Source: Diphasiastrum complanatum
Lineage: Eukaryota; Streptophyta; Lycopodiopsida; Lycopodiales; Lycopodiaceae
DNA: 64,000 nt
Reading direction: 5' to 3'
Assembly (NCBI GenBank): GCA_029204225.1
Contig: CM055108.1
Span: 148,217 to 212,216, forward strand
Shown one piece after another: positions 16,322-60,810 of the stretch. Each line of letters opens with the position of its first letter. The stretch's first letter is position 1. A model generated the notes under the pieces. That model did no database searches and was not told where the DNA came from. It worked only from the letters and a program-made list of their open reading frames with translations. The position numbers and the translations under genes were made by a program.

Positions 16322-19300
16322 ATGGCAGAAGTTTCAAGCAGTTTTGTGATGGCAAACATGGGAGAGTCCATTTTGAGTGAAAGTAGCAAATTGGACAGGA
16401 TTTCCAACTATGTAGTGTGGAAATTCAAAATGAAAAACATACTGATGGAGAAAGACGTGTGGGAAGTCGTCACAGGTGATGAGAGAAGGCCGTCAAATGA
16501 AGCGAATATCAAAGTGTTCGACAAAAAGATGAGGAAAGCTTTGACCTTCATTAACTTGTCAGTGAAGGATCACATCATTACCCACATTTGTGATGCTGTT
16601 CACCCAGACAAGCATGGGATGTGCTAAAGGAGCTGTTCGAGATGTCAAATCTGTCAAGAATTATGTTTTTGAAGTCAAAGCTGAATAGTGCCTGAATGGA
16701 GCAAGGAGAGCACATTCAGACGTACATGACCAGAATCAAGACAATGAGGGATGAACTACATTCTATTGGTGAGCACATACGTGATGTGGAGCTGGTGCAC
16801 AATGCATTGTGTGGCATTGCAGAACCCCATCAGATGTTTGTGAGCAGAATAGCATCAAGAAAAAGATTGCCAACCTTTGACGAGCTCATAGGAATCTTGA
16901 TGTAGAAAAAGCAACAGCGAGAAATGGTGAAAGCTAGACATCAAAATACTGACGATCAAGCACTTGCGACACGCCAAAAACAAGGCAAGGGCAAGGGCAA
17001 GAAGAAGTCTAAGCAGCAATTTGCCAAGACTCTGGAGGATGAGGGATCTTCCAATAAGACCAAGAAGAAAGGCAAGTGCTTCCATTGTGGTAAAAAGGGC
17101 CATTAGAAGAGTGAATGTCGCAAATTCCTGGTGGAACAAGGCAAGGGGAAACCAAAGCAAGCAGGTAACCTTGTCGATGAGGGTGAGATTGAAGACTCTA
17201 GCATCTTCATATCTGCATTGTCATCCAATCAAGATGATCAAGCGTGGTATATTGACTCGGGAGCCACAAGACACATGACAAGTAACAAGAATTGGTTCAG
17301 TAGCTTGAAAGTGTTGGATAATGGAACATCTGTTTCACAAGCAAATTGTGAGACATGCAAGATCAAGGGGATAGGAACCGTTTCAATCCAACTACCTGAT
17401 GGCAAAAGCAGGATGATCAGGGAGGTACTTTACGTACCAGGTTTGAAGAAAAATCTACTTTCTGTTGGAGTCATTACTGATCAAAAGTTGAAAGTGGAAT
17501 TTGCCCATGATCGTTGCTTTGTGAAGGATGTGAACCAAAAGTTCAAAGTTATTGTGGATGGAGTAAGGGAGCCCAATACAAAATTGTATAGGTTGAATGC
17601 CACAATCAAGGGGCAACATGGACTCGTATCATCCATTCCATCACAAACTAAGTTGTGGCATAAGAGGCTTGGTCACTTGAACTTGGGAAGCCTCAGTTTG
17701 ATGAGAAAATTGGAGATGGTAACATGATTGCCTACTATAGAAGACCACTTGAAACCGATGTGCGAATCATGTGTATATGGGAAGCAACATCGAGAGAAGT
17801 TCAATAAAGGTGGTGTTGCACGAGCAAAGAACATCCTGGATTTAATCCACACAGATTTATGCGGGCCTATGAGGACCATGTCCTTAGGTAAATCCTTCTA
17901 TTTCATGACCTTTATTGATGATATGTCACGTAAGATGTGGATCTACTTCTTGAAGAAGAAATCGGATGCATTTGACAATTTCAAGAGCTTCAAAGCATTG
18001 GTTGAAAATCAGATAGGTAGGAAGATCAAAGTCCTAAGATTAAAATTGTGGAGGTGAGTATAACTCTAATGACTTCAATGATCTTTGTGATCAATGTGGG
18101 ATTAAAAGACAATTTACGCAAGCTCATACTCCTGCTCTCAATGGTGTAGCTGAGCGCAAGAATCATACGATTGTGGAAAGTGCCAGATATATGCTAGCTG
18201 AGATGAAACTACCAAAAGATTTTTGGTCAGAAGCATGCAGTACGGCAGTCTATCTTTAAAATAGAAGTCCTACCATTGCCATACCAAAGATAACACCTGA
18301 GGAAGTATTCACGAAGAAGAAGCCAAAGGTGAACCACTTGCAAATCTTTGGATGTAAGGCATTTGTACACATTCCTAAGGAAGAGAGACGTAAACTTGAT
18401 GTAAAAGCTATCAAGTGTATATTCCTAGAATATGATGAACGTGTGAAGGGCTATAGATGTTTTGATCCAGTGGAAAACAAAATCCATGTAAGCCGAGATG
18501 TTATCTTTGATGAATCCAAGATGTATGAAGACGAGGATGCTGAGAAGATAGATACATCCAGGGAGAAAGATGGTATAGTGAGGATACCTCCTGATGATGA
18601 TCCGTTCATTGACCTTCCGAGTGATGAATATGAGGATACATCTCAAGATACTACTACTCAACCTCAAGAGACAAGTTGGAGAGGTAGAGACAAACCTTTT
18701 GGTGCAAGAAGAATTGAAGTTGCAGGTGACAAACGCAAGGAGAAGGATGTACCGTGGGATACATTTTCACCAGGAAGCTCCCTAAATGGTTTGAGAGATT
18801 GTTGGAGAGCCGCGACATGGATGACTTTCCAAGATCATCTAGCCAGGGAGATCTACGAAGATCAACAAGAGAGAAGACACAACCTGAAAGACATGAAGCA
18901 AATTATGCTCTCTTATCTAGCATTATTCAAAGCAAAGAACCTTCGACTTATGGTGAAGCGAAGGACGATGACATTTGGGTCAAGGCCATGGGAGAGGAGA
19001 TGGAGTCAATTGCTAAGAATAGCACATGGGACTTAGTAGAACCACCAGTTGGCAAGAAACCCATTGGTTGCAAATGGGTATACATGACTAAGTACCATGC
19101 AGATGGAAGTATAGCAAAGCACAAGGCAAGATTGGTGATCAAAGGGTATGCACAAAGTAAAGGCTTCGACTATGAGGAGACCTTTGCACCAGTATGTAAG
19201 TGGAATACTTTGCATCTACTTGTTGCTTTAACTTCACATTTTGGTTGGCCTTTGCATCAGATGGATGTGAAATCTACTTTTCTAAATGGTGAGTTAGAAG

Positions 19301-19611
19301 AAGAGGTGTTCATGGATCAGCCTGAAGGCTTTGTAGCGAAGGGACAGGAAAATAAAGTATGTCGCATGAAGAAAGCGCTTTATGGTCTTAAATAGGCACC
19401 ACGTGCGTGGTATAGCAGGATTGATGCCTACTTTCGTTCAAAGGGGATGGTGAGAACACATTCTGATCCAAATCTATATGTCTTAGGCTTTGATGGTATG
19501 GTTGCTTTGATTGCTCTTTATGTTGATGACTTGATTATTACGGGAAAAAATCAAGAGATGATAGACATGATCAAGAAAGACCTCATGGAACAATTTGAGA
19601 TGACTGATTAT
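16322..19611 (+). pseudogene. Copia gag-pol, truncated before RNase H
   Basis: Gag starts at 16322 (MAEVSSSFVMANMGES). It is broken near 16625 and resumes to a zinc knuckle at about 17080-17118, whose CCHC is split by TAG at 17104. Protease (WYIDSGATRHM, about 17246), GAG-preintegrase (LWHKRLGHLN, 17655) and integrase (CESC near 17762, FIDDMSRKMW near 17912, NGVAERKNHT near 18140) follow, with a frameshift near 18045 and a stop near 18257. Reverse transcriptase (18950-19611) shows KARLVIKGYAQ, the first catalytic block MDVKSTFLNGELEE and YVDDLIITG, with TAG at 19393 in YGLK-APRAW. RNase H is absent: coding joins the LTR directly. The domain order is that of Copia, and several breaks make it inactive. 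Confidence 0.9.
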
Positions 19612-22064: not shown

Positions 22065-23860
22065 TTAGTTAAAGTTCTCTGCATAATGTTTGGTTCCCTT
22101 GAAATTTGGTGTCAATTTGTGTGAGCCCCATGCCTCAAGCTTTTGGTATTGGTTGAGGTAGTCTGTGGCTACGATTATGTATTGAGTCTGGGAACTCCTT
22201 GTTGCAAGACCTCTTCGGTACAATTGGCCGGCAATCAGCTGATAAGGTCTAGCCTTCAAGATCAATTTCTGCTGTTCCGCCTTTGGTAGTGATTTGTATG
22301 GTTGGCCCCGCATTAGTATTCAACAATGTCGGCAGCCCATTCTGGTATTGTGTCCACGTAAAATAAGGCAGCATCTGCCAACTCATCGTCGGGTTGGGTT
22401 GCAATCTCCTTTCCCTTGATTCGTGACACATGATCTGCCATGTAGTGTTGTTTTCCCTTGCGAACTACTATCCCAAAATCAAACTCCAATAACAGAAGTA
22501 GCCATCTGGTGATTCTTTCGGTGTTGCAAGTTTTATTAACGAGATAGAGCAAGGGTTGATGGTCCGTATAAAAAGCAAAATGTGTGGCCATCAAGTAATG
22601 GCCAGTGCTTCCCGCTCTGTGGTTAAATAGTTCATTTCGGTATCACTGAATTGTCGGCTTGCAAACCGGATTGGAAAATCCTTTTTGTGTTCACTTGGCT
22701 GGGTTAAGACTACTCCAACTGCATAGTTCGATGCGTCCGTATGCACGTGAAACTCAATGGACCAATTGGGTGGGCGTAAGATTGGTGCTGAAACCAATGC
22801 ATCCTTAAGCTTTTGGAAAGCCTTTAGGGCCTCCTCATTCCAATGTGGATCCGTTGTAAGTTTGTAGATTGGTCTGGCTAACTCCGCAAAATCAAGAATG
22901 AAGATCCTATAATAGTTAGCATGACCCATGAAAATGTAGACCTCGCGGATCGTCCCCGGTGGTGGTAGATCAATAATGATCCTGATCTTTGATAGATCTG
23001 TGGCAAAATCCCGTGTCTTGACACTATATGGCCGAGAATCAAGCCATGTGTCACCCAGAATTGACATTTTTCTGGATTCAGGGAGATCTGGTATTTGCGG
23101 CATTTTTGTAACACCTTCTTCAAATTGGATAAGTGTTCTGAATCTGGTCCATGCACGCACAGATCGTCCAAGAAAATTTCCAGAAATTTTTGCAAATAGT
23201 CTTTGAATGCTTCCTGCATGACTCGTTGGAAAGTGCTTGGGGCATTGCAAAGTCTAAATGGCATCACTTTATAGGCATAGGTTCCCCATTCTGTGGCAAA
23301 TGTTGTCTTGTGCTGGTCCTGGGGGGCTATTTTCACTTGGTTGTAGCCGCTGAAGCCGTCCAAGAAACTGTAGGCTTCGGCGCCAGCTACCCTGTCGAGG
23401 ACACTTTCCGTAAATGGTAAAGGAAAATGGTCCTTTTTGGTGACTGCATTTAGCGCCTTCAGATTCACACAGATCCGCATTTTGCCATTCTTCTTGGGTA
23501 CTATAACTATCGGCGATACCCATTCCGTGTGCTCAATCTCGTAAATGAAATCTGCGTCCATCAGCTTTTGCAACTCCTGCTTGATCAGTTCTATATAATT
23601 CGGGTTGCAGCGGTAGTAACGGCTCACCTTGGGGACTGCTCCGTCCACCAAGGGTATGGTATGTTGGACTACAGTTGGCGGAATGCCCTTTAGATCACTA
23701 TAGCTCCAGGCAAAATAGTCTTTATATTCCACCAACAAGGATCGTAGTCTCTTGAACTACGTGGGTGTTAACTGCTCTCCCACATGCACTTCAAAGGAAT
23801 GTGTAGCTAATATCTTCACCAAAGCATTGGTAAAATACTTGTTTACAAAGACATATTTGT
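22065..23860 (-). pseudogene. Ty3/Gypsy reverse transcriptase and RNase H, decayed
   Basis: Minus strand, upstream to downstream: a DYFAWSYSDLKGIPP linker (about 23730), reverse transcriptase (23640-22990) with WVSPIVIVPKKNGKMR, SFLDGFSGYNQVKI and the catalytic block EIFLDDLCVHG (LDD where most have Y/F-L/V-D-D), then the connection and RNase H in a second frame after a shift near 23000 (FHVHTDASNYAVG, 22750; YTDHQPLLYLVNK, 22560). A third segment (22313-22065) has the start of the integrase zinc region but jumps from LYRRGLAT to TQYIIVATDY, deleting the rest. No LTR was found. It is of plant Gypsy type, probably Tat- or Athila-like. Confidence 0.85.
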
Positions 23861-44161: not shown

Positions 44162-45106
44162 TTGACCAGGTACACACAACGGCCAAGAACAAAGGTGCTG
44201 CAGGTCCCTCTGTCTTTGTTCCACATGATGGCAGATTCACGACTACATGCCCAAAATGTTTATGATTGGGCACAGTTTGCTTCGAACTGCCTTCATGACT
44301 ATATCAAGAACAAGCAACAGATTACAATGTTGGGGTACCTGATGATAAATCTCACACTCAATCAGGTGAACAATGGTCCCCAACTTCAAGGACAATTGCA
44401 AGTAGTAGACAAAGCTTGGGATATCCCCATTGAGTCGAATAATTCCAAGCGTTCACGATCACGAGCCACATCACCATCAGGGCTTCCACCCAAAAGGCCA
44501 AATACTAGTATCATCACACTGGTACAGAAGCAACCCAGCCCTCAACCAGAACTAACAGCAGAAGGATCATCGGCAACTCAACAAGCCGACACCTCTAAGG
44601 CTCAGTTGCCTAACACGCGGCAACAATGAATAAAAAAAAAGCTCCAAGCAAAGCGAAAATCACCCGACGGCACAGAATCCGAGGACTCCGATTCTAATGA
44701 TGGGAGCTCCTCCTCACATGCATCCTCTCAACAACACTCATCACCCTCACACATCCTTGACGGGGGTGATGGAGCAGCTACTGCCATAGCAGTAGACATG
44801 GGCACAACAATGCAAGTCGTGCCACCAGACCAAGCCACCACCCCACCCTTATTGATTACCACGCCAACCTCACCGAAGGCACACTGTTTGGGGGGGGGGG
44901 GAGGGGGGGGGGGAGGGGGAGGAGTGGGGAGTACCATTCCCCAAGACACAGGAGCGGCTCAACAACCACATGCCCAACAAGTCCATACTCTCACAGACAC
45001 GTCACAATATTTTGATGTTGCGGACCTGATGGAGATCAATGATGATGATGCAGAAAAAGTGGATCAGTCTGACCCCTTCACTAACCACCACCACTATTTC
45101 TACTAA
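44162..45106 (+). other. Unrecognised open frames, Pro/Ser/Gln-rich
   Basis: A 155-codon frame (44162-44629) has a helical start (MMADSRLHAQNVYDWAQFAS) and a Ser/Arg/Pro/Gln-rich end. A second, partly shifted frame runs through a poly-Gly tract to 45106. It may be a retroelement structural region or a domesticated fragment. I see no zinc knuckle or known fold and do not name it. Confidence 0.35.
44890..44929 (+). repeat. Poly-G tract with G-quadruplex potential
   Basis: A run of 11 G, an A, 11 G, an A, 5 G, then GGAGTGGGG: five G-blocks within 40 bp on the plus strand, enough for several stacked quartets. Confidence 0.9.
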
Positions 45107-45479
45107 CATTGTTTCTCCACTCCCTCCACTTCCACCCTCTTTCCCTCCACAACGTCTATTCTTTGGATTAGCTTCACCAACCCACACCCCTGATTAGTAC
45201 CCAAAACACGATGACATTTGTTTTGGGACTTTGACCTGAAAAAGAGTAATCTTTTTTGGTGTTTTGTAATGGTCCTAGTTTTAGGCCAAAGTCATGGATT
45301 TTCTTAATAAATCTCTGAATTTTGTTTTTGAAAAATGCAAAAAAAATGCATATTTTAAATAAAGAACTACAAGTTTTTTGTTGCAAACTTCATAAAACCA
45401 TCATAATTACAAAAGAAATAATAATTCAAGAGAACAAATGATTTTTGAAACTCAAAATCCCATTGAAATACAAAATAAC

Positions 45480-48400
45480 TTAAATTATGTTTGCACATTC
45501 TTTTTTTTGAAGTACATTTTCTAAGGAATTTTCACTGATGCCTCTCAATTCAGAACTTGACATATTCTCAACACTCTCGTTTTCAGCTGATGAAGTGGAA
45601 GACCCGTCTTCTTCATCAGAGTCAACTGGCATGTCTTCCTTAAAATCCGCGTCTAATGTTGACAAAAAACCTTGTAAATCAGCTTTTCTCTGTTGATGAC
45701 GAGTGGAGGATGATGGTTTTTCAAGTAATCTAAGTCGTTCTTTCAATATAGATATTGTTGACTTTCGTAGATGATTGGTCATTGTTAATTCAAAATTAAA
45801 TGCCAAAACATCTACATCCTGTAGATTCAAATCGTCGACTCTTGGTTGATTTTTTGGCAATTTCTTTCTCTTGCCCTTTGGATCTACTTGCAACATTTCG
45901 AGTTCGTACCTTCCCAAAAAAGCATTCGTTGAAGTGGTGCGCAACCAACGGACACGTAGTACTTTTGTTTGATTGCTATTTTGAATACAGCCAAGTACTT
46001 TGGCAATCCAAAATGGATGTCCTTCATTGTTTTCTGAAGCTAGAAGTGCAACAAGTCTTCCAATTTGGATTTCATTCAAATGCCATTTCATTTTTGCAGC
46101 TTTTACACTTTGCCTATTCTTCCTTGAGCCCACATAAATTTCATGTTCCTCACCTTGCACAAGCTGCAGATCTCGAGGAAGATCTGAAGGTTCGATAGTC
46201 GTAGTTGATGTTCCTAATTTATGAGGCCAATGAAATTCATCGGTTGTTGCTTTATGAGGCCAATGAAATTCATCAGTTGTTGATGTATGTTTGAGATTGA
46301 GCAAACTGAATTTTTGTTCCTCGAAAAAGTCCATCCACCAATGCTGATCAAACTCATCAAAAAAATGATAAGCTCTTGAATACTTGATTCAAAAGAATTT
46401 AATGAGGCAAATGGATCAATCTCACGATGTTCTCTTTGCGTCTTTTGTTCTTCTAGCAAGGACTTCAAGGGAGACAACACAACAAGCTTGATTTGAGTCG
46501 ATGGAATGTTAAGCAAAAATCGAACTCCTTCAAGAGGTAGCCACGAAACTGAATTTGAAAATAGTTTGCCCCATTATAATATAATGTCTAATTCGTTACA
46601 TTCGATTTTAAACTGGTGTTGAAAGCTAATATCATTGATATTAGCTACGCATCGCTCTGTTTCGTTGGACGCCTTAACATAATCACGAAAGTCATGTGTG
46701 TTTGATTGATGACACGTTTGGCTTTGGCACATACGATTCGTCGACAATGCTTTGAAGCACTGGTAATGAAAATGCTTTCTTGCGTCTCAATCTCTTAGAA
46801 AAGCAATTAAACATTTGATCAATTTGATCATGGGTATGTCCTACCAACAAAAATCCTATTTTTACTTTTTTGAAAAAAAATTTCTCCACTAGCATAGACA
46901 AGTATGCCAAAGCAATTTGATTTTTATTTTCCCTAGCAGCGTTGTCAAGCTGCAAATAAAGTATTTCTGGAAGATTTTCACCAAATTTGCAAATTATCTT
47001 ATGTACAATGGTGATCGTCAAATTTGGATCATTTCGAACATTGGGATAATAAAAAAAGACCTTGGACTCCAAAGTGCCATTAAACACAAGTGCTCCAACG
47101 AGATGAACCTGAATAAAATCTGCCTCGTTCAAATTTTTGGGCACTCTGACAAAATGAGACAACATTGTTTTCTTCTGATCTATGCCATCAATAACAAGTC
47201 CCAGATATTTTTGTGGACATTCCAAACATTTCTTTCGATGCTTGGCCAACTTTTGTCTTTCAACTGTTTGTTGATCTCTGTGCAGTTGAAGAGCTTTTGT
47301 AGCATCCACTGAAAATACAATGATTCACTTATTTAATAAAATAAAGATCATACCATAATGGTGTTCAAAAATACTGCAACATAAATTTTTTCAAAACAGA
47401 AAGTATTAAAATGAATGACAAATATAAATAATATTTACCTTTCTCATCATTGGTCTTTTCAAGTTGTTTTGCAGACTTTAACAACTCGCAAGTAGAGCAT
47501 ACTGTCATTCGTGATTTTTTGAAAATCTTTACTAGTCCAAAATCTCTTTTCCAAATTCTAAGAAAATATGAGTAACTCAAATAGGAAACATTTTTTGTTT
47601 TTGCAAACTCTTTGTACATCAAAAATATTTCTAGTTTTGTAAAATTATCCGGCAAGTGAAAATATAAGAAATTAGGCAATTTTTCTCCGTGCACATCTAT
47701 GAAATGATTTAGCCAAACAGTTGCATTTAAAGCATCTGGAGAAACAGTTCGACCCTGTAAGGATCCCCGTAATGTTGGGTCTTTCTGAAGTCGTGCATGC
47801 ATTCGTTGAAGCCGTGAGTTTTCGATTGCATGAACTGCTTTGTAAGCTTTGCGACAAACCTCCAAAGCATTTAAAAAATACGAAAATATATTTTTGTCCG
47901 GCCTCACTATTGCACACAAATAGAAATTTCTCTCATCCTTACTTTGTAAAAAGAAGTTTGATCTTAATTCTTCAATTTTTCTAATACTCAGCTTTTGCAA
48001 ACAACAGGATGAGCAGCAAATAATATTCCATACCTTTCAAATCTCAGATTTTGTAATCAACTATTTTTGACGATTCGTTAAATCAGGTGAGGATCTCAAG
48101 TCTCTCTTGTATTTTTCTTTTCGGAGTCTGATATATAAATTGAACCTGTGACACTAGTAGGTGCTTGAACTGGTTGAGGAGGTGTTGGAATTTCATGATT
48201 GAGAATTATGGCTCCAACCTCAGGATGTTCTGGACCCTTAGAAGGCTCTAAATTTTCAACAAATATAGTCCTTTTAGATTTAACACAACGAACATCACTT
48301 TGAGAAGGTCTCCTACGAACATGAGAAAAGCTTGAACGTCGCGGATCAATAGACTTACGTGGATCTGTTGATTTACTAGAATCAGTAACTGAGTGAATTG

Positions 48401-48729
48401 AAGCTTTTGACTCATCACTCAATGATTCAACTTGTTCAAAAGAACAATGTTCTAGTTGTGCCGAGCCTGTATCTGAAGAGGAGGACGAGGTCGAAAGATT
48501 TGATACAAGCTGAGTTACAACGTCATTACTTGAAAAATACTTGCTTGAGGAATTTCAGATGATGAACGGGTAAATGATGACGATGCCACATCGTTTACCA
48601 AAACATGTTTAGATTCATGAGTGGCTTTATAAAAAAGCTTTCATTGGGAATGTCAGATGAAGATGTTGCACTTGTTGCAACATACTGAGTTACAACTACT
48701 GGAATAGAAGAGGTAGAACTACTTGACAT
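45480..48729 (-). pseudogene. DUF7869-like (RNase H-fold type) transposase gene
   Basis: Start ATG at 48729 (MSSSSTSSIPVVV). The Ser-rich N terminus is frameshifted near 48640 and 48530. A Cys motif (CCSSCCLQKL, about 48015) leads to exon 48030-47439, joined in phase to an exon beginning at 47308 (G|TG GAT). The core shows LGLVIDGIDQKKT, then ILYLQLDNAARENKNQ, then VGHTHDQIDQMFN: the Asp-Asp-(His/Asp) pattern I recall for DUF7869, probably a DDE nuclease. After a stop near 46570 come NSVSWLPLEGVRF and, in another frame, a barrel-like domain (GRLVALLASENNEGHPFWIA, about 46080) and an acidic tail. Family recall is from memory. Cleavage activity is inferred, and the breaks suggest it is no longer active. 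Confidence 0.7.
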
Positions 48730-48760
48730 CGTAACCTCAAATTTTTTTTAACTACGTACT

Positions 48761-48773
48761 TATGCTAAGCATA
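48761..48773. promoter_or_regulatory. 13-bp inverted repeat, copy 1
   Basis: TATGCT-A-AGCATA, 32 bp upstream of the transposase start codon. Candidate binding site for an element-encoded protein. Confidence 0.6.
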
Positions 48774-48985
48774 GAACCGTTCAAATAGTTAACACCACAC
48801 TAAATGTGCTCCTCAAACATAACTGCAACCTATGTTGGTAATAGAACAAATAAAAACCTATGCGAACCTCAATAGACGCACACAGAAAAACCAACTAAAT
48901 GCAAATGAACAACAAGTCTAAAAAGTAACTGGTTAATAAAAATTTCCGGCGGCTACCATGTCTTAAATACTGTTTGGCAGCATTC

Positions 48986-49008
48986 TTAGGGTTAGGGTTA
49001 GGGTTAGG
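48986..49008 (+). repeat. Short TTAGGG array
   Basis: Three full TTAGGG units plus TTAGG, in the spacer between the divergent genes. The common plant telomere unit is TTTAGGG; the six-base form is found only in some lineages. On the opposite strand it gives the telo-box-like AACCCTAA. Confidence 0.9.
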
Positions 49009-49569
49009 TTTGGACTGTCCGGGCTAATACTCGAGGTCAGCGTGGGGTGAGGTGAGTCATGGCAAATTGGTCCCGACATAAGCTGGAGGACTGGCGTGAG
49101 ACGGTGGATTTTCATTAAGATAGTGTTTTAAATTTTCCTAATAAGTCTTTTTTTTTTTTTGTAGATTTTCAATTGTCTTTGATAATTTTCGAAATGTGGA
49201 GGATTTCTTTTAAAATTTCAAGAAAACCTCAAGATATTCCGTTAAAAGATAAGAAAAAATTCATGTACTATTTCACTAAAGGGGTCAACAACACAAAGCT
49301 TTCGGAGCTTAGCTGAGAAGCCTGGCAGAGGAGACTCGCAATTCAAAGTTCAAGGAAGATTGCTTGCTGATCAACCAGATGACGATCATGAAGAAGGTTT
49401 TGTGAATATACTTGTAAAGGAGACGGATAAGTCTCGTTCTATTTTCATTCTGAATGAGACTATGATAAAGATCCGACTTTGTCAGGACAAGGCCATCAAA
49501 GCCTATTTTGATAAAGCTCTAGTTACTTTGGTGAGTAATTATGAAATATATTTTTAATCATGTTTGTTT

Positions 49570-49582
49570 CATGCTTAGCATA
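49570..49582. promoter_or_regulatory. 13-bp inverted repeat, copy 2
   Basis: CATGCT-T-AGCATA, one arm base changed, inside the intron 49531-49668 of the methyltransferase gene. Confidence 0.55.
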
Positions 49583-51279
49583 GTTGTTATTAGATATAAA
49601 ATTATTTAAACTTTTAGATTTAAGCTTTTAGTCACTATATTTTAATTTTGATTTTTGTTTCTGTTCAGAGCATGAAGCAATGCTTAAAAATGGTTTTAGC
49701 TGCTATTGATGAGAGAAAAGATCCAGTCTATTCATTACAGAGTTCAAAAGGTGTATCTATTGGACCTCACAAGCCCGCTTCTACCACTGCTCAGGTCACA
49801 AAGCCGGCCTCTGAAAATGTTGAGGATGAAACCGTAGCCATCCCTCATCCCAAAAAAAAAAGATCTCAAATTATTTCTGAAACTTCGCCCACTAGACCTA
49901 AGTCACGCCCAAAGACCATGGCTACACATCGCCATAAGTCCATCCCTTCTGCTGAAAGCAAAAAAGCCACCACCGAACCATCTTTGGCGTTGCCTGGTGC
50001 ATCCATCCGCCCATTACAAGACAACTCCGAACTTGCCAAATTAAGAGAAGATATCCATAAAACAAAAAAAATAAAAGAAACATCTTTAATTTTAGACATA
50101 AATCAGTGTGATAGGACACCTGTAGACCTAATAACAGGAGACAGACCAATGGAAGTTAGAGAGCCTAATGAAACACATGTACATAATTTAAAAATAAAAT
50201 TTAGAGATCATACACAAGCCATAGTTACTCCCTTTGTTGTTTTGGTTGATCCCAACGAATGCAACGATATTGCAAATTTTGACTTTTCTGTATTAGATTC
50301 ATATCATTTCTTTGTTCTTGGGGGGATACACAGTTTACAAGTTCGAAAACAATTATCTCTAGAATATTCCCATATTACAAGCTTTCGAATTGTGAGTGTC
50401 ATTGTATTTGCTAGCCTGACAGTGAAAGAAGTGAAATTATTGGCTTGGGACCACGATATTGATCAGAACTACCGGATGAAGATGACCGTGATACAAAGAA
50501 TTCGTTTTTTTCACAAAGAATACATGAGAGTCTCCAAAGCAGGAGATGTGAATCAACTTGAGCTGAAAGCACTATGTGCTCAAGAGGCAAGCCTGCCTTT
50601 TGATTTGAAAAAGCCTTACTAAATACGATAATTTTTTTCAGCTTCCTTTTTGCAGTGCTCTGGTTATAATATATGTTATAATCTTTTTAAATTGTTTTTA
50701 TTAGACTAAAATTTGAACTCAATTTTAATATTGGTTAAATCCTTTATCAATTAATTTTTTTTTATTTCAAGTGTGGGCCCTTGTTGATAAAATTTTTGAT
50801 AAGTGGAAAATTTTTCAAATAAAAGGCCAACCTGCTCAGGGTGTCTCGAAGTCCAAAAAAAAAGTTGTGAGCACTCAAACTCTGAAGCCAATCCCTACTG
50901 AAATGGGAATATCAGAGTGGAAGAATATGCAAGGGATTAGCTCTTCAGAGCTAATAATAAGTGTTCTTTCAAGAGTTGCCGATAGTCAACTTTCCCTGGC
51001 AGAAATGAGAAAAGAATTTCAGAGGTAATAATCATAAATTAAATATTTATTTTCATGTTACATTTTTTAATGAAATGATTTTCATAATTTGGTTGGATTT
51101 TTAACAATTATATTTTTTAAATGCAAGCACAAATCATTTATGAAAGTTCAAGAAGCCCTTGTGACAGGGTTAAATTGTCAAGATTTCGATGAGTGCCAAA
51201 GGCTTTATCTTCTAAGCAGCCGAAATGAAGCCCTGAGTCCATTTTTTATTTTGTTTAGAGACATGGTATTTATTTCACC

Positions 51280-51292
51280 CATGCTTAGCATA
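51280..51292. promoter_or_regulatory. 13-bp inverted repeat, copy 3
   Basis: CATGCT-T-AGCATA at the start of intron 51266-51445. Confidence 0.55.
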
Positions 51293-51326
51293 GGTGCTTA
51301 TTAATTGTTTCTTTCCTATATTCTAT

Positions 51327-51356
51327 GTCTCCTATGCTAAGCATAGCTTTTTCTTT
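51327..51356 (+). repeat. 30-bp direct repeat with inverted-repeat copy 4
   Basis: Unit starting GTCTCCT and ending CTTTTTCTTT. It contains TATGCT-A-AGCATA at 51333-51345. It differs from 51411-51440 at one base. Confidence 0.85.
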
Positions 51357-51410
51357 ATTTAATTATTTTCTTTTGATAAGTTAAGTCTCCTATTATATTT
51401 TATATTTTTT

Positions 51411-51440
51411 GTCTCCCATGCTAAGCATAGCTTTTTCTTT
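51411..51440 (+). repeat. 30-bp direct repeat with inverted-repeat copy 5
   Basis: Second unit, 84 bp downstream, with CATGCT-A-AGCATA at 51417-51429. Its pyrimidine end forms the polypyrimidine tract of the 3' splice site at 51445. Confidence 0.85.
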
Positions 51441-52649
51441 TTCAGTCTCCCAAAGACAAACAAAACAAAGTCCTTCCAGAGCAATTCAAGAGACATATTC
51501 TGAAGACAAAAGCAGAAAAAAGGGATAGGGAGAAATTGGCACGGGGTGAGACCATTGTGGAGGAGGATCCATTAGAGACCTACCTTCCCAAAAGTGTCGA
51601 TGATCAACCATGCTTTTACTTTGTTGAGGAGGGCAATTGCAGAGAAATTTTAAATTTTTTAAGAAAAATGCCTTATACACTCTGCATCGCCGATATACCA
51701 TATGAATTTCAGATGAAAAAATCATTAAATGATGATACTCCTTTCGAATTCACTAAAATCCATAGTTTTATGCAGGGCTTTCTTGAAGTCACAACTTCTC
51801 CAATTTGGAGAGTTGTTATTTTTCATTCTTGGTAGTCAGCATCAGTACAGAAAGCTCTACTAACTTTCTATAATGCGGGAATTGAGAATGCTGTGTGGTA
51901 AGTTCTTAAGTTTTCGAATTATCAATTCGTATTTTAATTCGTAATTTATTTTAAATTTTTTATTTTAAAATTAAAATTTTAATTTGATTTTACTTGTAAT
52001 GTTCCATGTCAGGTACAAGCCCAATGCCAGGAACTCGGGAGGAACTCGACTTTGCAATGAAATAGAATACATAACCATTGGTTATTATTCTTTGGATGAC
52101 AAACGCTCGATATTGTATTATAACACTTCCGGACTGACAAATTTTGGAAACTTGTTCCAGTATCCAGTTGTGACAAAGAAATTAAAAAATCCAATGACGG
52201 GTTCCGTGGCTTGTCCCTACCAAAAGCCACAACAATTAATTAATCATTTAATTGATATTTTTTCTCACCCAGCTGATTGGGTTTTAGATTTATTTAGCGG
52301 TAGCGGCATTAGGAGCGCATGTGCTGTTCAAAAAGGCAGACATGTTGCTGTAGTAAATTTAGATACTAATTTAGTTGATTTTATAAAAATGAGAATGAAA
52401 TGTCTTTCAATTTTGCTAGATGAATTATTTGAGATGGAAAAGAGTTTGGACAGCAAGGATACAATAATTTCCTTGTCCAAGGAACCTCAGCCTCCTGCTA
52501 GCGGAAAAGTAGGCGACACAGGAGAATTTGCTGATGTCTTGGTTCAAGATTACAATGTAGTAACTATAGTTGAGGAAATTGTAAAAGAGGTGCCACTTGA
52601 TAGTACAGTGGCTACTCAAAAAAAAATAAAAGAAAAAAAATGTAAATGA

Positions 52650-53055
52650 CATCGATGATTTTTGGGAATAAAAGATTCTCTTTTGTTTTAAAGAATAATT
52701 GTGTTTGTATTTTTTTGATGTATTGTGTTTTGAATTCTTTTTTATTGATTTAATATTTTTAAATTTTATTTTTTAACGATTTAAAATTTAAAATTTGAAA
52801 TATTTTAAAAAATTTAACATTGATAATTATTACCAAAAATTAAAATTGTAATGATTTGTCAAGTTTACAATATTTTAATTTTAGATGTGTTTTTATAATA
52901 TTTTTTGTAAAAAAACTTTTGTTAAAAATCATAGGAAATGAAAAAAAAAATTATATTTTTTTCAGGGTGATTTAAATATTCTTATAAATAATTTAATCTT
53001 GATTATTGTAAAGTAATTTTATTTGCGTGTATTTAATGTTTAAAGCTAGTCACTC
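52650..53055. other. AT-rich 3' flank of methyltransferase gene
   Basis: Over 80 percent A/T by eye, with AATAAA-like signals (GGAATAAAAG near 52666). No gene. The element end probably lies here. Confidence 0.5.
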
Positions 53056-53059
53056 AAAT

Positions 53060-53865
53060 TAGCAACAAGAAGAAGAAGATGAAGCAGCTTTCATGACCAA
53101 AGTCGGAGAACAACAGGATATCAATTTCTGGTATCTAGACTCCGGAGCAACTCAACACATGACTCACCATCGTGACTGGTTCAAAGGCTACAAGTCATTC
53201 ACCCACTTTCGAGTTGTGCAACTTGGAGACAACTCATCACATTCAATCAAAGGTGAAGGAGCAGTCAGAGTTGAATGCAAAAGAGGTGAAGTCAAGTTGT
53301 GGTCCAACGTTCTCCACGTTCCAAACCTGACCAATAATCTACTCTTAGTTAGCAGAATCACCGATTCAAATTGGAGGGTCAAATTCGATATAGAAGGCTG
53401 CACAATTTTTGACAAATCCCGGAAGGTTCTAGCCTATGGAAGAAAAAGCGGCTATCTGTACAAACTCGGCCATTGCTATTCTTCTAACAGTCAAGCTCTT
53501 CACACAACCACTTTTGAAACAACTGATATGTCGTGGCATTTGAGACTTGGGCCATCTTAACTTCAACAGTATTCAGCAAATGTTAGCTCAAAGTCTAGTA
53601 CAAGACCTGCCTTCAGTCAACAAGCCAACTTCTCCATGCAAAAGTTGTATTATCAGCAAGCATGCTAGAAGTCTCTTCGGTTCAGACTCAGTTCACACAT
53701 CCAAGGGCTTGCTTGACCTTGTACACAGCAACATTTGTGGCCCGATGTAGATTGCTTCCACAGAGGGAGCTCTCTATTCCCTAACTTTCATCAACAATTT
53801 CTCTCGAAGGATTGCAATCTACTATCTGAAGAACAAGTCTGAAGCATTCAAGTTCTTCGTGCAGC
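53060..53865 (+). pseudogene. Copia protease-integrase fragment
   Basis: Begins in the middle of the polyprotein (EEEDEAAFMTKVGEQQ). It has the protease motif WYLDSGATQHM, LHVPNLTNNLLLVSRITD, GAG-preintegrase (MSWHLRLG, frameshift, GHLNFNSIQQM), the integrase zinc region (CKSCIISKHAR) and the first core block LVHSNICGPM, with a stop after it. It is cut near 53865 by an LTR tail. Gag and reverse transcriptase are missing. The protease region is similar by eye to the adjacent element at 55016. Confidence 0.85.
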
Positions 53866-53869
53866 GCAC

Positions 53870-53990
53870 GAACACTTTCCGTTTGAGTTCATTTCTCGTT
53901 TGAGTTTCGAGTTCGTTTCCTTTCATGTTCATTTCTTTTTGAGCTATTTTAGTTTCTCACACTCACACACCCTCTTTCATTCCCAACATG
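53870..53990 (+). repeat. Copia LTR 3' end, truncated
   Basis: A T-rich end with repeats of GAGTTCRTTTC, ending just before TGGTATCAAAGCT (53990-54002), a slightly diverged tRNA-Met primer-binding site. Only the final ~120 bp of the LTR can be seen. Confidence 0.6.
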
Positions 53991-54142
53991 GTATCAAAGC
54001 TATTTTCATAGCCTGATAAGCTTCCACAGTACAATACTCTACTAGCGGATAGAGTAATTGTCTTCTTGTTCTGTAATTCAGTATCAGATTTTCAAACTTA
54101 AGTCATTGATAGTTTTTCCTATCACTTAGACTAATCTTCCAC

Positions 54143-56555
54143 ATGGATTTCCGAGGAAAAGCCAGTCCTATCATGGACAAGCTTGATGGAGCCAATTGCC
54201 ATTTGTGAAAATTTAAGATGAAAACTGTACTAATGGCTAAAGGATTGTACGATGTTGTTACACGTGCAGAAGGGAGACCTGAAGCAGATGATGCAGCAAT
54301 CGTCAGATGGAAGCTAAAGGATGGAAAGGTTTTTGTGCTGATCATCCTCAACATTACGGATACCCAAATCGGCCATGTATCCGAGGCCTAGACATCGAAA
54401 GAAGTCTGGGACATCTTGAGCACACTATACGAAATGCAAGGTATAGCTTCTAAGCTATATCTCTGGAAGAGATTTTACTCCCTCAAGATGACGAATGGTG
54501 ATTCCCTGCAGAATCACATCAATCAATTCAAGAACCTGCTAAGGCAAATGGTCGTTGTTGGATTTATCATAGATGATCAAGACTTAGTGATACAACTGCT
54601 TACAAGCCTGCCAAGATCATACGATAGCTGGGTGATGATCATCATGACACATCCAGAATTGACTCTTTGGAGAGTCATTACTATGTTGTTGCAAGAAGAC
54701 ACGCGGAGGAACGAAGCCTCAAGTTCATCAGCTGATTCTCACTCTTTATACACCAACAAGAGCACGACTAAGCAGAAGAAGAAGAAAGGCCCGAAGCAGT
54801 CAAAGCAAGACCAAAAACCAGCACAACACAAAGAACAGTCAAATTCGCAGACAAATAAGAAGCTGTTCTGTAGATACTGCAAGAAAAACAACCACGAAAT
54901 TCAAGACTGCCGGATACTGCAAGCAAAGAACAATAACAAGGGGCAGTCGAATCAAGTAGCAAATGCAGCTACATAAGTTCCACAGCCTATTGAAGAAGCG
55001 GATCATGATGTCTTCATGACCAGCCATCAAGGAGCATCCGGCGACAGTTCTTGGTTCCTGGATTCCAGAGCCACTCAACACATGACCAGCCTCATTGGAT
55101 GTTTCGAGTCCTGTACACCTTACAGTACCAAGAAATATGTCCGCCTTGGCGACAATAGCACACAAACTATTAAAGGTAAAGGTATTGTAAGATTAAGCTT
55201 TGCAAATAATCAGTCTAAGCTACTTTCTAAAGTCCTATATGTACCAAATTTATCTACGAATTTGCTCTCTGTAAGCAGAATCACAGATCTAGAACATAGA
55301 GTAGAATTCGAATGTGATCAGTGCAAAGTAGTTGATAGGACATGCAAGATCCTAGCATTCGAAAAGAGGCATGGATACTTGTATGAATTAAGTCATTGTT
55401 TTTTCGCCTCTAGTCAGGCGTTCAATACTTCTATTCATGCAAATAAAAGTTTACTTTGGCATTATAGACTTGGTCACTTGAATTATGCTGATGTACAACA
55501 AATGTCTAGACAATCTATTATTCTTGATCTCGACTATCCTCATGATAAAGTCGAGTTACATGTCTGTCAAGATTGTCTAGTTGGTAAACAGACTAGGAAA
55601 CCATTTAAATCAAGCCATCAGCATATTGCTAGAGGATTGTTAGACATTGTACATTTAGACATTTGTGGCCCGATGAAAAATCCTTCACTGAAGGATGCAA
55701 AGTATATTATAACTTTTATTGATGAATTCTCCAGAAGGACTATGGTATACTTTATGAAAAAGAAATCAAGCCTTCAACTGCTTCAGAATCTTCAAGGAGC
55801 ATGCAGAAAAGGAGACTGGAAGGACGATCAAGGCTCTAAGGTCAGACAACGGTGGAGAATATATCTCTATCGAGTTTAAGAAGTACTGCCAAAGCCATGG
55901 CATTGAGCAGCAATTCACCACTCCTTACAGTCTTCAGTCTAATGGCTTAGCCGAGAGGAAGAACCGTACCCTAGTTGAATCAGCCAAATGTATGGTAGCG
56001 CATGCATCGCTGCCGAAGAGATTTTGGGCTGCAACTGTCTCCACTGCAACTTACGTCCAGAACAGATATTCGACCAAGGCCCTCTCAGACAAGACACCCC
56101 ACGAGGTGTGGACAGGCTTTATGCCTTCTGTGAAGAATCTAAGAGTGTTTGGATGCGTTGCCTACGCGCATATCCCAAAGAGGAAAAAATTGGACTTCCA
56201 AGGTCTCAAGACCATCCTGATTGGATATACTTCATCTAATAATACATACAAGCTATATAATCCTGATACCCAGCAAATCCTGTATAGCCGGGATACATTC
56301 TTTGTTGAGGATCAGTTCGTCGACATCAAAGGCAAGGATATTGCTCTAGGAGAACCTTCATCACCTACCATTGACACGACTGTCCGAGCTTTTGGCTCAG
56401 GCATGTCCATACTTTTTGATAGCAAATCAGACGAAGATGTTGTTGTTACCCAGCAACAAGTTCTAGGAGTGGTTCATCAATCAAATCCTCCCAGAAGATC
56501 AAGCCGAGTGTGCACACAGCCCACAAGGTATACTCCTAAGTCTGCATGTCTATAA
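54143..56555 (+). pseudogene. Copia gag-protease-integrase, no reverse transcriptase
   Basis: From ATG 54143 (MDFRGKASPIMDKLDGANCH) one frame continues to 55879 with stops near 54207, 54389 and 54974. It holds the Gag core, a zinc knuckle (CRYCKKNNHEIQDC, about 54867), protease with DSRATQHM (Gly of D-S-G replaced by Arg), GAG-preintegrase (LLWHYRLGHLN, 55454) and the integrase zinc region and core (CQDCLVGKQTR, VHLDICGPM, FIDEFSRRTM). After a frameshift the core ends (SNGLAERKNRT, about 55935) and the C-terminal part runs to 56555. Reverse transcriptase, RNase H and the 3' LTR are absent. The protease change alone would prevent maturation. Confidence 0.88.
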
Positions 56556-57660: not shown

Positions 57661-58736
57661 TCATTTTCCATTTTCACACTTTTTAAAAAGTTGATGTTGA
57701 CTTTTTAGAAGCTTAACATCTAAAGATAAAGAAGATATAGTTCTATCCATGTTATCCATACACTTCTTCAATACTTCTTTCATATCATCCATATCCGTAT
57801 TGGCACTTCTACTTCTACATCTAGAATCCAAGATTCTAGTATTTTGTTCGAGTGGATTTATTTTAAAATCCAATAGTTGATTCATCATTGAGAAATGAAC
57901 TCCATCAAATTCCATATTTTTCTTATCTAAAAGGTGGGATGGACATCTTGCTATAGTATCATTTTCTCCCAATGGTCTCACTATAGGTTGGCATTGATCT
58001 GTGACTAAAATGGCTAGCTCAATAGCTTTGGCTTTACATATAGCCTCATCCAAAGTAAAGGGCATCGATTGGCACACATTTATTTGAATATCACATTTTA
58101 ATCCTCTCAAAAAGAAAGACAGTCTTATGAGTTCAGACAAATCAGTCATTTATTCACTTGAAAAACCAATTCCTTAAAACGACAAGCATATTGTTGTATA
58201 GTTTCCATTGGTCCTTGTTGCATGGTTGACAATGTAGATATTAGCTCAGCTATATCACAAGGAGGTCTAAACCGCTTAATAATTAGGGTGTAGAACTCCT
58301 CCAAAGTAGTAATGGAATCCAAAGGTAAATTATGATACCAATGTATAGCTTCTCCCTTCAAAGTCATAACAAACAACATTAGTTCATGGCCAGGATCATG
58401 TATTCTATTGATAAAGCAAAATATATTAAACACTTGTATGTGTCTATCAGCATCCTCATTCAATGTACCACTATATTTTGGCAACAAACCCCTTAACTTA
58501 GGCAACCTAGTAGTGTTATACAGAATATTTATTGGTTGTCTCCTTTCATTCATTACTTTAGCAATGGTTTTTTCAAGAACTCTCTCTCGGAAGTCTATGG
58601 AATCATCCTCACAAAGGTTATCATCATCTTCATTGTTTTCTTTCAAATGTAATTTAGTTTGACATAGAACTTCATTACCAGTTAATATCTTTCCAAATCT
58701 CTTTCTTTTTTTTGAATTCATGACATATGTCATCAT
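57661..58736 (-). pseudogene. Ty3/Gypsy Gag fragment
   Basis: Two minus-strand frames, 58736-58146 and 58149-57661, overlap at a frame break. The first has the Retrotrans_gag pattern (PKYSGTLNEDADRHIQVF, MLFVMTLKGEAIHWYHNLP, LEEFYTLIIKRFRPP, QQYACRFKELVFQ). The second continues with LIRLSFFLRGLKCDIQINV and a Lys-rich end without a visible zinc knuckle. Gag forms the capsid. Protease and pol do not follow downstream. Confidence 0.85.
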
Positions 58737-58822
58737 TTAATAATATGATATTCTCTTCATCAATTTTCTCATATATGCTAATATCACTATCAGAATCATC
58801 CTCTATCAATACTCGATCATAA

Positions 58823-59917
58823 TCAACTATATATTCTTTTAGATCTTATTGACATTTTTTTTTCAAAAGTATATTCTTCTTGTACTACACTTCCATAGTT
58901 GATATCATCAGAACTGATATAATCCTTTATCTTGACTATGGATCTCATTGCATCAAGGTCTATATCACAATGATGATTATCATTGATACGATGAATACAA
59001 AAATTGTTTGGATACAGTTGATCACATTGTTCATATGATGTTTGAGCTGTTTCACTTAGATTTTCGCTCATATAATTAATGTTTGAATCATCATCCATAT
59101 TAAAACCGATCAAATGCATATTAAAATTATGATTCTCCTGAAATTTATCATTAACCATATCCATATGTTTCATCTCCTCATAATCAAAGTTGTCAGGATA
59201 CATTTCAATAATGTCATATCTAGACAATTTTTTGAACTCCCTTAACATATCCCAACCAATATTATTGGGTAATAATAATTTCTCAATCATTACTTTCTTT
59301 TTCATGGAAATAGGTTTCCATTTCATACAACATATTCTTTGCAACATTTCACTCTCTTTAGTGAACAATAACATTTCTTTTTTCTTACTATAAGGTAGCA
59401 AATCTCTATGCTCAATGCAATTTATTAGAAGATTTTCAAATCCAGTTCTTTTTATACTTTCATAGCTGTCAAATTTATTTTCACCGTCTAATGGTCGAGC
59501 CTTATCATATAGGAGATTATCATCTATGTTTTCAATCCCATCTTTAATCATGTTATCCTCAAGGGTTATTTCCTCCAAATTATTGTGTGACTGTTCAACA
59601 ACAAAACTCAAATTCTCTTCTTTATCAATTGAGTGATCATGACTTGTCTTTTTATCATTTGTATCTTCTATTAGCACCTCATCGGTATCAATAGCCTTTT
59701 CATCTTGATTTTGATGATAGTCTTGATTAAAAGAAAAATCTTTCCAATCAATAATTGACGATCCACTTGTCACACTCAGTGATTGGTATAGTTCATCACT
59801 TATTGTATCACATTCTTCTTGAATATGGGAGTTATCTAGTATCTTTTTCACAATTATTATTTTGAAATTTTTCATATTCATCAACTTGGAGTATACAACT
59901 CTTTTCAACACAATCAA
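58823..59917 (-). other. Long acidic open frame, no known family
   Basis: An uninterrupted 364-codon minus-strand frame just upstream of the Gypsy gag, rich in Asp, Glu, Asn, Ile and His. It contains acidic low-complexity stretches (DEVLIEDTNDKK, DLDAMRSIVKIKDYISSDD) and a more ordered middle (LLPNNIGWDMLREFKKLSRY). It overlaps the end of a Copia integrase frame at 59832-59917. An undisrupted frame of this length among decayed elements is unusual. It may be an extra Gypsy frame or captured host sequence. I assign no function. Confidence 0.45.
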
Positions 59918-60655
59918 GGAATTGAAAAGCTATAGGACGCTCTTTATATAACGATTGTTTCTCTCTCAAATCAATCACATCATCACTTATGATGCTAGAT
60001 ACCCATGAAATGAGTTGGTAGATGACATTTACTTCATTGGATGGTGCATCATAAGCCAGGTAGTCGGACATCTCATTGGAGATGTATTCGCCGCCACCAT
60101 CAGTTCCGAATGCCATCACTTTCCTAGACATTTGTGTCTCAGCCATGGCCTTGAATCTCTTGAAGCATTCAAAGGCTTCAGATTTGTGCTTAATGAACAT
60201 GACTGTAGACCATATGGAGTAATCATCTATGAAAGTAATAAAATAGACTGCATCTCCTAAGGATGGAGTTGGCGTTGGACCACAGAAATCGCTATGTACA
60301 AGATCTAATACATGCTTTGATTTGATGGAATGTGATTTTGGAAAGTTGCTTCTAGAGTGCTTCCCATAGATGCATGATTCACAAAAGAAAGATTTCCTAT
60401 ATAATGAAGACGGGAAACTCAAACCATCAACTAAATTATTACAAAGCATATAAGAAAGTGATCTTGTATTCACGTGTCCAAGTCGACTATGCCACAGAAC
60501 AACACTATCATTTACATTTTCATTAGAGATACTAGCTAATGCAACTGAATTAGAGAGTACGTAAAGGTTCTCGACTCTAGTGCATGTAGTCAGAGGAGTA
60601 TCTTCCTCGAGTATTACCTGGTTATTAGAGAAAAAGTGGCACAAATTTGCCTTAG
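59832..60655 (-). pseudogene. Copia GAG-preintegrase and integrase fragment
   Basis: Minus strand from about 60650: VVLWHSRLGHVNTRSLSYM (GAG-preintegrase), the integrase zinc region CESCIYGKHSR, core blocks LVHSDFCGPTPTPSLGDAVY, FITFIDDYS and GTDGGGEYIS. The frame then changes from integrase sequence to an unrelated stretch (APSNEVNVIYQLISWVSS) at about 60045, so the Glu-bearing part of the core is lost. Protease and reverse transcriptase are not present. Confidence 0.82.
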
Positions 60656-60810
60656 AATTGGGTCCCAGCTCGCCCTAAAGTGGCTAGACACAGTCTAAGA
60701 AACTGACTTTCAAAAAAACCGTCAAAAATATTTTGTGGTCAATTTTTGTAAAGACCGAGCCAAAAATGCCGGTCCACCTAGAATTGGGTCCCAGCTCGTC
60801 CTAAATGAGG
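60654..60810 (+). repeat. Direct repeat, 126-bp spacing
   Basis: AGAATTGGGTCCCAGCTCG occurs at about 60654 and 60780, followed in both by C/T-CCTAAA and a GGCTAGA block. It may be two copies of a short tandem unit or an LTR-internal repeat. Confidence 0.6.

Follow-up and report, generated by a model that had tools for sequence, protein, structure and literature searches.

Transposon-borne DNA-modifying enzymes are already known. As described in the cited accounts, fungal DNA transposons carry TET/JBP enzymes (PMC12730594), and methyltransferases occur in retrotransposons, with a Dam-like enzyme in DIRS elements and DNMTs in LINE and DIRS elements of Symbiodinium and Gypsy elements of Klebsormidium, Gypsy-Dnmt3 being under purifying selection at Ka/Ks <0.2 (PMC5890265). 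The amino-methyltransferase N4CMT of bdelloids, a chromodomain fusion with an SPPY motif, was captured from bacteria by the host lineage (PMC8885841), and in Arabidopsis the transposon VANDAL21 has its own anti-silencing protein, VANC21, which reads arrays of short motifs in the noncoding parts of the element (PMC5735166; PMC10398659). Here we analysed a 64,000-nucleotide stretch of contig CM055108.1 of the lycopod Diphasiastrum complanatum (the window), in which a segment holds two divergent genes, one encoding a DUF7869 protein and the other a bacterial-type amino-methyltransferase, together with 17-bp palindromes. It would represent another enzyme class in a plant cut-and-paste element. We considered it an even chance that this is a transposon with two divergent genes whose methyltransferase acts on, or is aimed by, the element's own palindromes.

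Compared with VANDAL21, the window element is likewise a DNA transposon of a plant in which short motifs lie densely in the intergenic region and in introns of its own genes; VANC21 reads such motifs, and related VANDAL families use other ones (PMC5735166; PMC10398659). In contrast, VANDAL is, in the source, a MuDR element (PMC12730594), encodes different proteins and has a 9-base motif that is not a palindrome and keeps to one orientation, whereas the window element has DUF7869, an amino-methyltransferase and a 17-bp palindrome with a putative reader. With the fungal TET/JBP transposons it shares a DNA-modifying enzyme beside a transposase, although the fungal enzyme is a dioxygenase acting on 5-methylcytosine (5mC) and the plant one an amino-methyltransferase. 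The methyltransferase retrotransposons also combine a mobile element with a DNA methyltransferase and, in Gypsy-Dnmt3, with purifying selection, but are described as retroelements with a reverse transcriptase, whereas our element has inverted-repeat ends and 4-bp duplications. Bdelloid N4CMT is likewise a bacterial-type amino-methyltransferase in a eukaryote, but it is host-captured, has a chromodomain and SPPY, and is not described as transposon-borne in the account consulted (PMC8885841). Pfam searches of the element's exons, covering all except methyltransferase exon 1 and the small exon, found only DUF7869 and N6_N4_Mtase above cut-off, and no MuDR-type transposase, VANC protein, TET/JBP domain or reverse transcriptase was found in the searched exons. 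A literature search that excluded most subscription papers found no amino-methyltransferase in a plant cut-and-paste element and no paper naming DUF7869.

To characterize the family, the genome (1.745 Gb, 5176 contigs) was searched. The NAM family, which is specific to land plants, had 98 matches in it and none in 14 control genomes, making a land plant the likely source. A 301-bp probe from exon 2 of the methyltransferase gene gave 846 candidates, the best 40 of which were 94-100% identical, and a probe from the DUF7869 gene gave 1323, the best 40 at 95-100% identity. A 27-nt pattern of the left end, with <=2 mismatches, occurred in 744 places, compared with 0 for the reversed control. These results indicated that the family is high-copy. 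We examined 27 loci of 10 kb, picked through the methyltransferase probe (20), the DUF probe (5) or palindrome clusters (2, both of which additionally had a DUF or methyltransferase match). Not all of them were independent: L009 duplicates the window copy almost exactly, and L010/L011, L012/L020, L014/L016, L015/L022, L021/L028, L023/L024 and L025/L026 are likely duplicated segments.

Both ends were found in nine loci (L012, L013, L020, L022, L023, L024, L031, L033 and L035; 8.5-9.5 kb), which represent seven insertions. The ends carried 11-bp terminal inverted repeats, AACACGATGAC and its inverted partner AACATGATGAC, and exons of both genes lay between them in 9/9 loci. A 4-bp target duplication was perfect in four of the seven insertions (AACT, TACA, GTGC and CCTT), with one change in the duplicate locus L023, and in L013 it matched at 3 of 4 bases. 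The DUF probe matched 10/20 of the methyltransferase-picked loci, 2 more kept other exons of the DUF gene, and 8 had no family DUF exons within 10 kb. Among the DUF-picked loci the methyltransferase was present in 4/5, and the fifth, L032, was cut directly past the DUF gene and had none. At least 17 of the 40 DUF-probe places had a mark of the methyltransferase gene on the expected side and strand, and among the matches listed none had it on the wrong one. An earlier note on this DNA had proposed a mobile element carrying a modification gene and had asked whether the two genes always travel together with shared ends. These copies, with the selection described below, gave the proposal good support, and a transposase never accompanied by the methyltransferase is contradicted for this family.

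All these results indicated that the window segment is a decayed copy of a high-copy plant DNA transposon with 11-bp terminal inverted repeats and 4-bp duplications (in 5/7 insertions, one of them 3 of 4). A cut-and-paste transposon is the best reading, transposition itself being presumed. The Sola superfamily is characterized by a DDD transposase and a 4-bp target duplication; such a duplication was found here except in L031 and L035, and Sola is a candidate superfamily by these shared features.

On the minus strand, the blocks LVIDGID, LQLDN and GHTHDQID that the earlier note had read by eye were present in that order and kept across copies, with single changes, and the region matched PF25273 (DUF7869; E 9.5e-46, 156.2 bits against a curated cut-off of 26 bits). 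The divergent arrangement it had described was confirmed. One segment with both genes also stood, while its coordinates had to be revised to those in the table, with the right side truncated. The DUF7869 protein is most likely the element's transposase because of the ordered D/D/D blocks and the position of the gene between the ends in all both-ended loci. In the majority state of the copies, read in the frame of the open reference exons, one stop was found over 897 DUF codons; it lies in D5 near the C-terminal end, and we take it as the natural stop. Genome-wide, PF25273 gave 2954 first-look candidates, and all of the best 150, which were scored, passed the cut-off (150/150), which shows that this genome contains a great many DUF7869 genes. 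Beside a truncated family copy, L025/L026 contain another, clearly different DUF7869 gene (~35-40% identical), at ~8.7-9.4 kb of the oriented locus.

The plus-strand gene had been described as an amino-methyltransferase, and this was upheld. Its last exon matched PF01555 (N6_N4_Mtase; E 1.3e-10, 42.1 bits, curated cut-off 26.7 bits), and the two catalytic exons joined, with X at the stop, matched model positions 3-217 of 221 (E 3.3e-12, 47.3 bits). The joined exons aligned to CcrM (6pbd) along the domain with E 6.9e-8, the best match in the Protein Data Bank (PDB). The absence of a methyltransferase fold, which the earlier note had named as an outcome that would speak against it, is thus contradicted. 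By profile, the gene encodes a bacterial-type N6-adenine or N4-cytosine amino-methyltransferase with putative activity. It has the same domain as the bacterial adenine methyltransferases CcrM and YhdJ, with motif IV preceding the S-adenosylmethionine (AdoMet) motif, but differs from them as an intron-split plant gene with DIPY for DPPY and a long N-terminal extension without an assigned fold. The catalytic motif of amino-methyltransferases is (D/N/S)PP(Y/F/W). Motif IV of the element read DIPY in 20/22 distinct readable places, DISY in L013 and YIPY in L039, so it falls outside this pattern; its PF01555 membership stands by profile, catalysis is putative, and DIPY leaves room for a non-catalytic version of the enzyme. 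Examples of this catalytic motif are given in PMC8885841.

Phage and plasmid relatives, the latter including genes named YhdJ, were ~22-33% identical among the matches listed, and no close bacterial or phage donor was found among them. Of four regions retrieved, three have an annotated gene that leaves no space for a fusion at the N-terminus; the fourth is unannotated. Two viral-contig scans, whose reach is close relatives only, gave no viral relatives. At G000:C22:12333634-12347569, four PF01555 matches lie ~4.5 kb apart in the same orientation, forming a tandem run of methyltransferase-bearing units.

We next describe the 17-bp palindrome CCTATGCT-N-AGCATAGG, whose centre may be any base (169 sites in 13 copies, core with <=1 mismatch); this candidate recognition site is also written CCTATGCTNAGCATAGG. 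Its core ATGCTWAGCAT occurred 5 times in the window, always within the element, compared with 0.04 in shuffles. Because the sites were chosen by their core, high values in the inner columns follow from the selection itself; farther from the centre, columns 6-8 played no part in the choice and carried 0.6-1.5 bits matching the symmetry, position +9 carried 1.28 bits, and nothing further out exceeded 0.52. Each both-ended locus had 16-18 core sites (<=1 mismatch), and their 9.0 kb of flanks had 0. Of the sites in 12 copies, the intergenic array accounted for 130 and the vicinity of the DUF gene start for 9; methyltransferase intron 1 had 12, and 35 lay beyond it, mostly in the intron preceding the motif IV exon. 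Spacing in the array was 40-42 bp in 75/118 intervals, 54-55 in 15 and 84 in 8, which is near whole helical turns. By eye the spacers looked unrelated, although portions of the array are arranged as an imperfect inverted repeat. Genome-wide there were 2141 exact 17-mers, compared with 0 for the reversed control. The half site ATGC/GCAT is reminiscent of ATGCAT, the target of YhdJ, which we regard as a lead and no more.

The selection test, headed METHYLTRANSFERASE, had the methyltransferase as its subject and used 21 loci, 13-20 per exon. Over 793 methyltransferase codons (exons M1, M2, M5 and M6; frame of the open reference exons), the majority state contained 0 stops. Four short pieces from PF01555 places were added: L039, a close copy of family A; L038, which represents subfamily C (69-77% protein identity to A); and L036 and L037, which represent subfamily B (60-66% to A and C). 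Across the last exon, the ratio of nonsynonymous to synonymous substitution rates (dN/dS, Nei-Gojobori) was 0.11-0.15 for A vs C, 0.10-0.18 for A vs B and 0.13 for C vs B, approximate values given a dS of 1.06-2.83 over 173-189 codons. Within B it was 0.24; in family A, L039 compared with three further copies gave 0.26-0.37, and those three compared with one another 0.59-1.09. Decay after insertion raises the between-subfamily values and does not lower them. These results showed that, between subfamilies A, B and C, purifying selection has acted on the last methyltransferase exon, and the methyltransferase looks like real cargo. In family A, C-to-T changes stood at 0.076 and G-to-A changes at 0.047, compared with 0.0008-0.0153 for other changes; such an excess is the mark of deaminated 5-methylcytosine and points to cytosine-methylated copies.

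As the dN/dS of one exon shows, selection has kept the methyltransferase during the life of the element, and it therefore does something for the element. We propose as the likeliest course that the methyltransferase, or a partner, would bind the palindromes between both genes and in the methyltransferase introns, and that the bound protein would modify or occupy the palindrome DNA. A dimeric protein reading the palindrome would fit because of the symmetry of the sites, which occur between the two divergent genes as well as in introns of the enzyme gene itself. As a result, the element's copies might be marked as self and the control region kept from host silencing by cytosine methylation, or transposase expression might be set. 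In its stronger form, in which the enzyme is addressed to the palindrome array of its own control region, so that a self-made, non-host mark distinguishes self from non-self and blocks host silencing, the proposal is possible but rather unlikely. VANC21 provides a working precedent, in which short-motif arrays in noncoding parts of an element are read by the anti-silencing protein that the element itself encodes (PMC5735166; PMC10398659). The earlier suggestion that methylation marks, protects or regulates the element's own DNA is made more plausible by the array, while from the sequence it remains a conjecture.

Several observations weigh against this interpretation. The identity of the palindrome-binding protein is a candidate assignment. 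Target duplications were absent in L031 (2 of 4 bases) and L035 (1 of 4, in a CT run), the copies examined are decayed, and DPPY was read at motif IV in 0/22 distinct places. Within family A, shared and singleton changes did not differ significantly in their nonsynonymous to synonymous proportions (Fisher p 0.07 for the methyltransferase, 0.52 for DUF; 0.87 and 0.52 without C-to-T and G-to-A), and singleton changes reached 0.92-1.75 of neutral expectation, by exon; the coding changes there look like decay after a burst, with selection not measurable. No palindrome was present in the two subfamily B pieces (0.7-0.8 kb). Contig C1 has 12 listed clusters of exact sites in its first 22.8 Mb; in this stretch, an exact palindrome lay within 5 kb of 1/7 DUF7869, 1/3 PF01555 and 1/3 exon-2 places among the matches listed and of 3/8 exact left ends. 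There was none within 50 kb of the other 6/7 listed DUF7869 places, nor within 10 kb of 2/3 listed methyltransferase-domain places, 2/3 listed exon-2 places and 5/8 exact left ends. The sparse palindromes near these DUF7869 places indicated that the exact motif belongs to the family of the window element and not to DUF7869 elements generally; other motifs may serve diverged relatives, and copies lacking the array account for some of the left ends.

The ParB identity given earlier to a stretch of exon 2 also fell away, being unsupported at profile level. The stretch had no Pfam or NCBIfam match and no phmmer match to PDB sequences, gave chance-level matches only in PHROGs (0.32) and in a PDB profile search (1.4), and in tblastn vs phages yielded a single match with E 4. 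The PF02195 (ParB_N) profile had 0 matches genome-wide and was found in 11/14 control genomes. A ParB-methyltransferase fusion thus has no profile support, the resemblance being by eye only.

Besides action of the methyltransferase at its own palindromes, the sites might belong to the DUF7869 transposase or to a transcription factor of host or element, serving expression or transposition, with the methyltransferase acting independently, for example on the whole element or genome. We regard this as a realistic possibility that falls short of probable. The array lies between divergent genes with one site directly upstream of the DUF gene start, and palindromes of the dimer type, spaced at nearly whole helical turns, would suit a regulator; some other plant elements have internal repeats that the transposase binds. 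However, the nine both-ended loci have four sites in methyltransferase introns but none within the DUF gene, and in the subfamily C piece a pair of core palindromes with a 50-bp separation occupies another position, directly upstream of the last exon, where A has none. A different role for the gene product, that of a DNA-binding anti-silencing factor in which the methyltransferase fold is kept without catalysis, like VANC of the Arabidopsis VANDAL elements, appears unlikely. It would agree with the motif IV sequence, and the pattern reported for VANC21 is similar, with motif arrays in the noncoding parts and introns of one element (PMC5735166, as far as that account extends), but most of the A copies read, as well as the B and C pieces, retain the AdoMet motif DLFSGSGTT, and most copies have both the Asp and the Tyr of motif IV.

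An enzyme directed at the DNA of the host or of rivals, for example to mark targets or to silence competitors in the way that bdelloid N4CMT acts at transposons, is quite improbable. There, a bacterial-origin amino-methyltransferase is described as writing a silencing-linked mark in a eukaryote (PMC8885841), whereas the copies studied here vary and decay like a selfish element, and in both-ended loci the palindromes occur only inside it. The decayed copies and the neutral appearance of mutations within the family would suit a gene captured by chance and carried without function. Nevertheless, the low dN/dS between subfamilies (dS >1, approximate) argues against such a passenger, and the majority state is free of stops; this explanation is already largely contradicted and very improbable.

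Any real role of N6-methyladenine (6mA) or N4-methylcytosine (4mC) in land-plant DNA is disputed, and an amino-methyltransferase selected through several subfamilies, together with dense and defined candidate sites, would allow a direct test of it. If methyltransferase action at the element's own palindromes is true, transposons would be known to have captured a further class of modification enzyme, plants would offer, after that of VANC, a second case of an element with arrays of its possible own recognition motif, and a eukaryotic transposon would own a modification system with its target sites built in.

The features of the window copy are collected in the table. With stops and reading-frame breaks in both genes, this copy is non-functional as it stands. 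Its left end is intact, while the right end is absent, the truncation lying ~455 bp before the right end of other copies; a search for terminal repeats within the window alone gave nothing significant because the right end is missing. The main palindrome array is missing because ~800 bp were lost.

Table. Features of the transposon copy in the window (positions of the 64-kb stretch)
Feature	Position	Strand	Basis or remark
Window copy of the transposon	45205..53044		blastn vs 20 copies: common start 45204/45205, last common position 53044 in longer copies
Left terminal inverted repeat	45205..45215	+	Partner, read inward, at right end of other copies
DUF7869 gene 3' part, C-terminal region	45480..46388	-	No known domain; nothing above Pfam cut-off
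DUF7869 domain exon, presumed transposase core with the three ordered blocks	46692..47309	-	PF25273 match
DUF7869 gene upstream exon with CxxC pair	47438..48000	-	Conserved in copies; exon ends by eye
DUF7869 gene serine-rich 5' part	48096..48731	-	Exons D0, D1
Palindrome ATGCTAAGCAT	48762..48772		Directly upstream of DUF7869 gene start
Junction, ~800 bp absent in window copy	49107..49108		Absent piece contains the main palindrome array in full copies
Methyltransferase gene exon 1 (M1), frame broken in window copy	49194..49530	+	
Palindrome, methyltransferase intron 1	49571..49581		
Methyltransferase gene exon 2: basic region, then "ParB-like" stretch	49669..50619	+	Exon 3' end uncertain
Small internal exon (M4), methyltransferase gene	51128..51265	+	
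Three palindromes (51281, 51334, 51418), intron preceding motif IV exon	51281..51428		
Methyltransferase motif IV exon (IADIPY)	51446..51897	+	In-frame stop in window copy
Methyltransferase last exon, AdoMet-binding motif DLFSGSG	52013..52649	+	PF01555 match

Between both genes, TTAGGG is repeated 3.8 times at 48986-49008. Runs of two or three units were also seen in L009, L022, L023, L024, L027 and L031 and were absent in five other copies; the repeat is therefore probably part of the element and not telomeric. The DUF7869 gene of the window copy contains a 33-bp tandem duplication (2.2 units) at 46217-46289, and a G-rich run of ~40 bases (44889-44931) lies directly outside the element on the left. 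Many broken retrotransposon open reading frames were present in the window, at 12381-14015, 17107-19395, 22591-23756, 53093-56555 and 58146-60674. Pfam covered parts of three of these five stretches and the remainder was named by eye; it found Copia-type sequence at 12381 and, in the right flank of the element, at 53093-55879 (Pol_BBD, gag_pre-integrase), and a reverse transcriptase at 22878.

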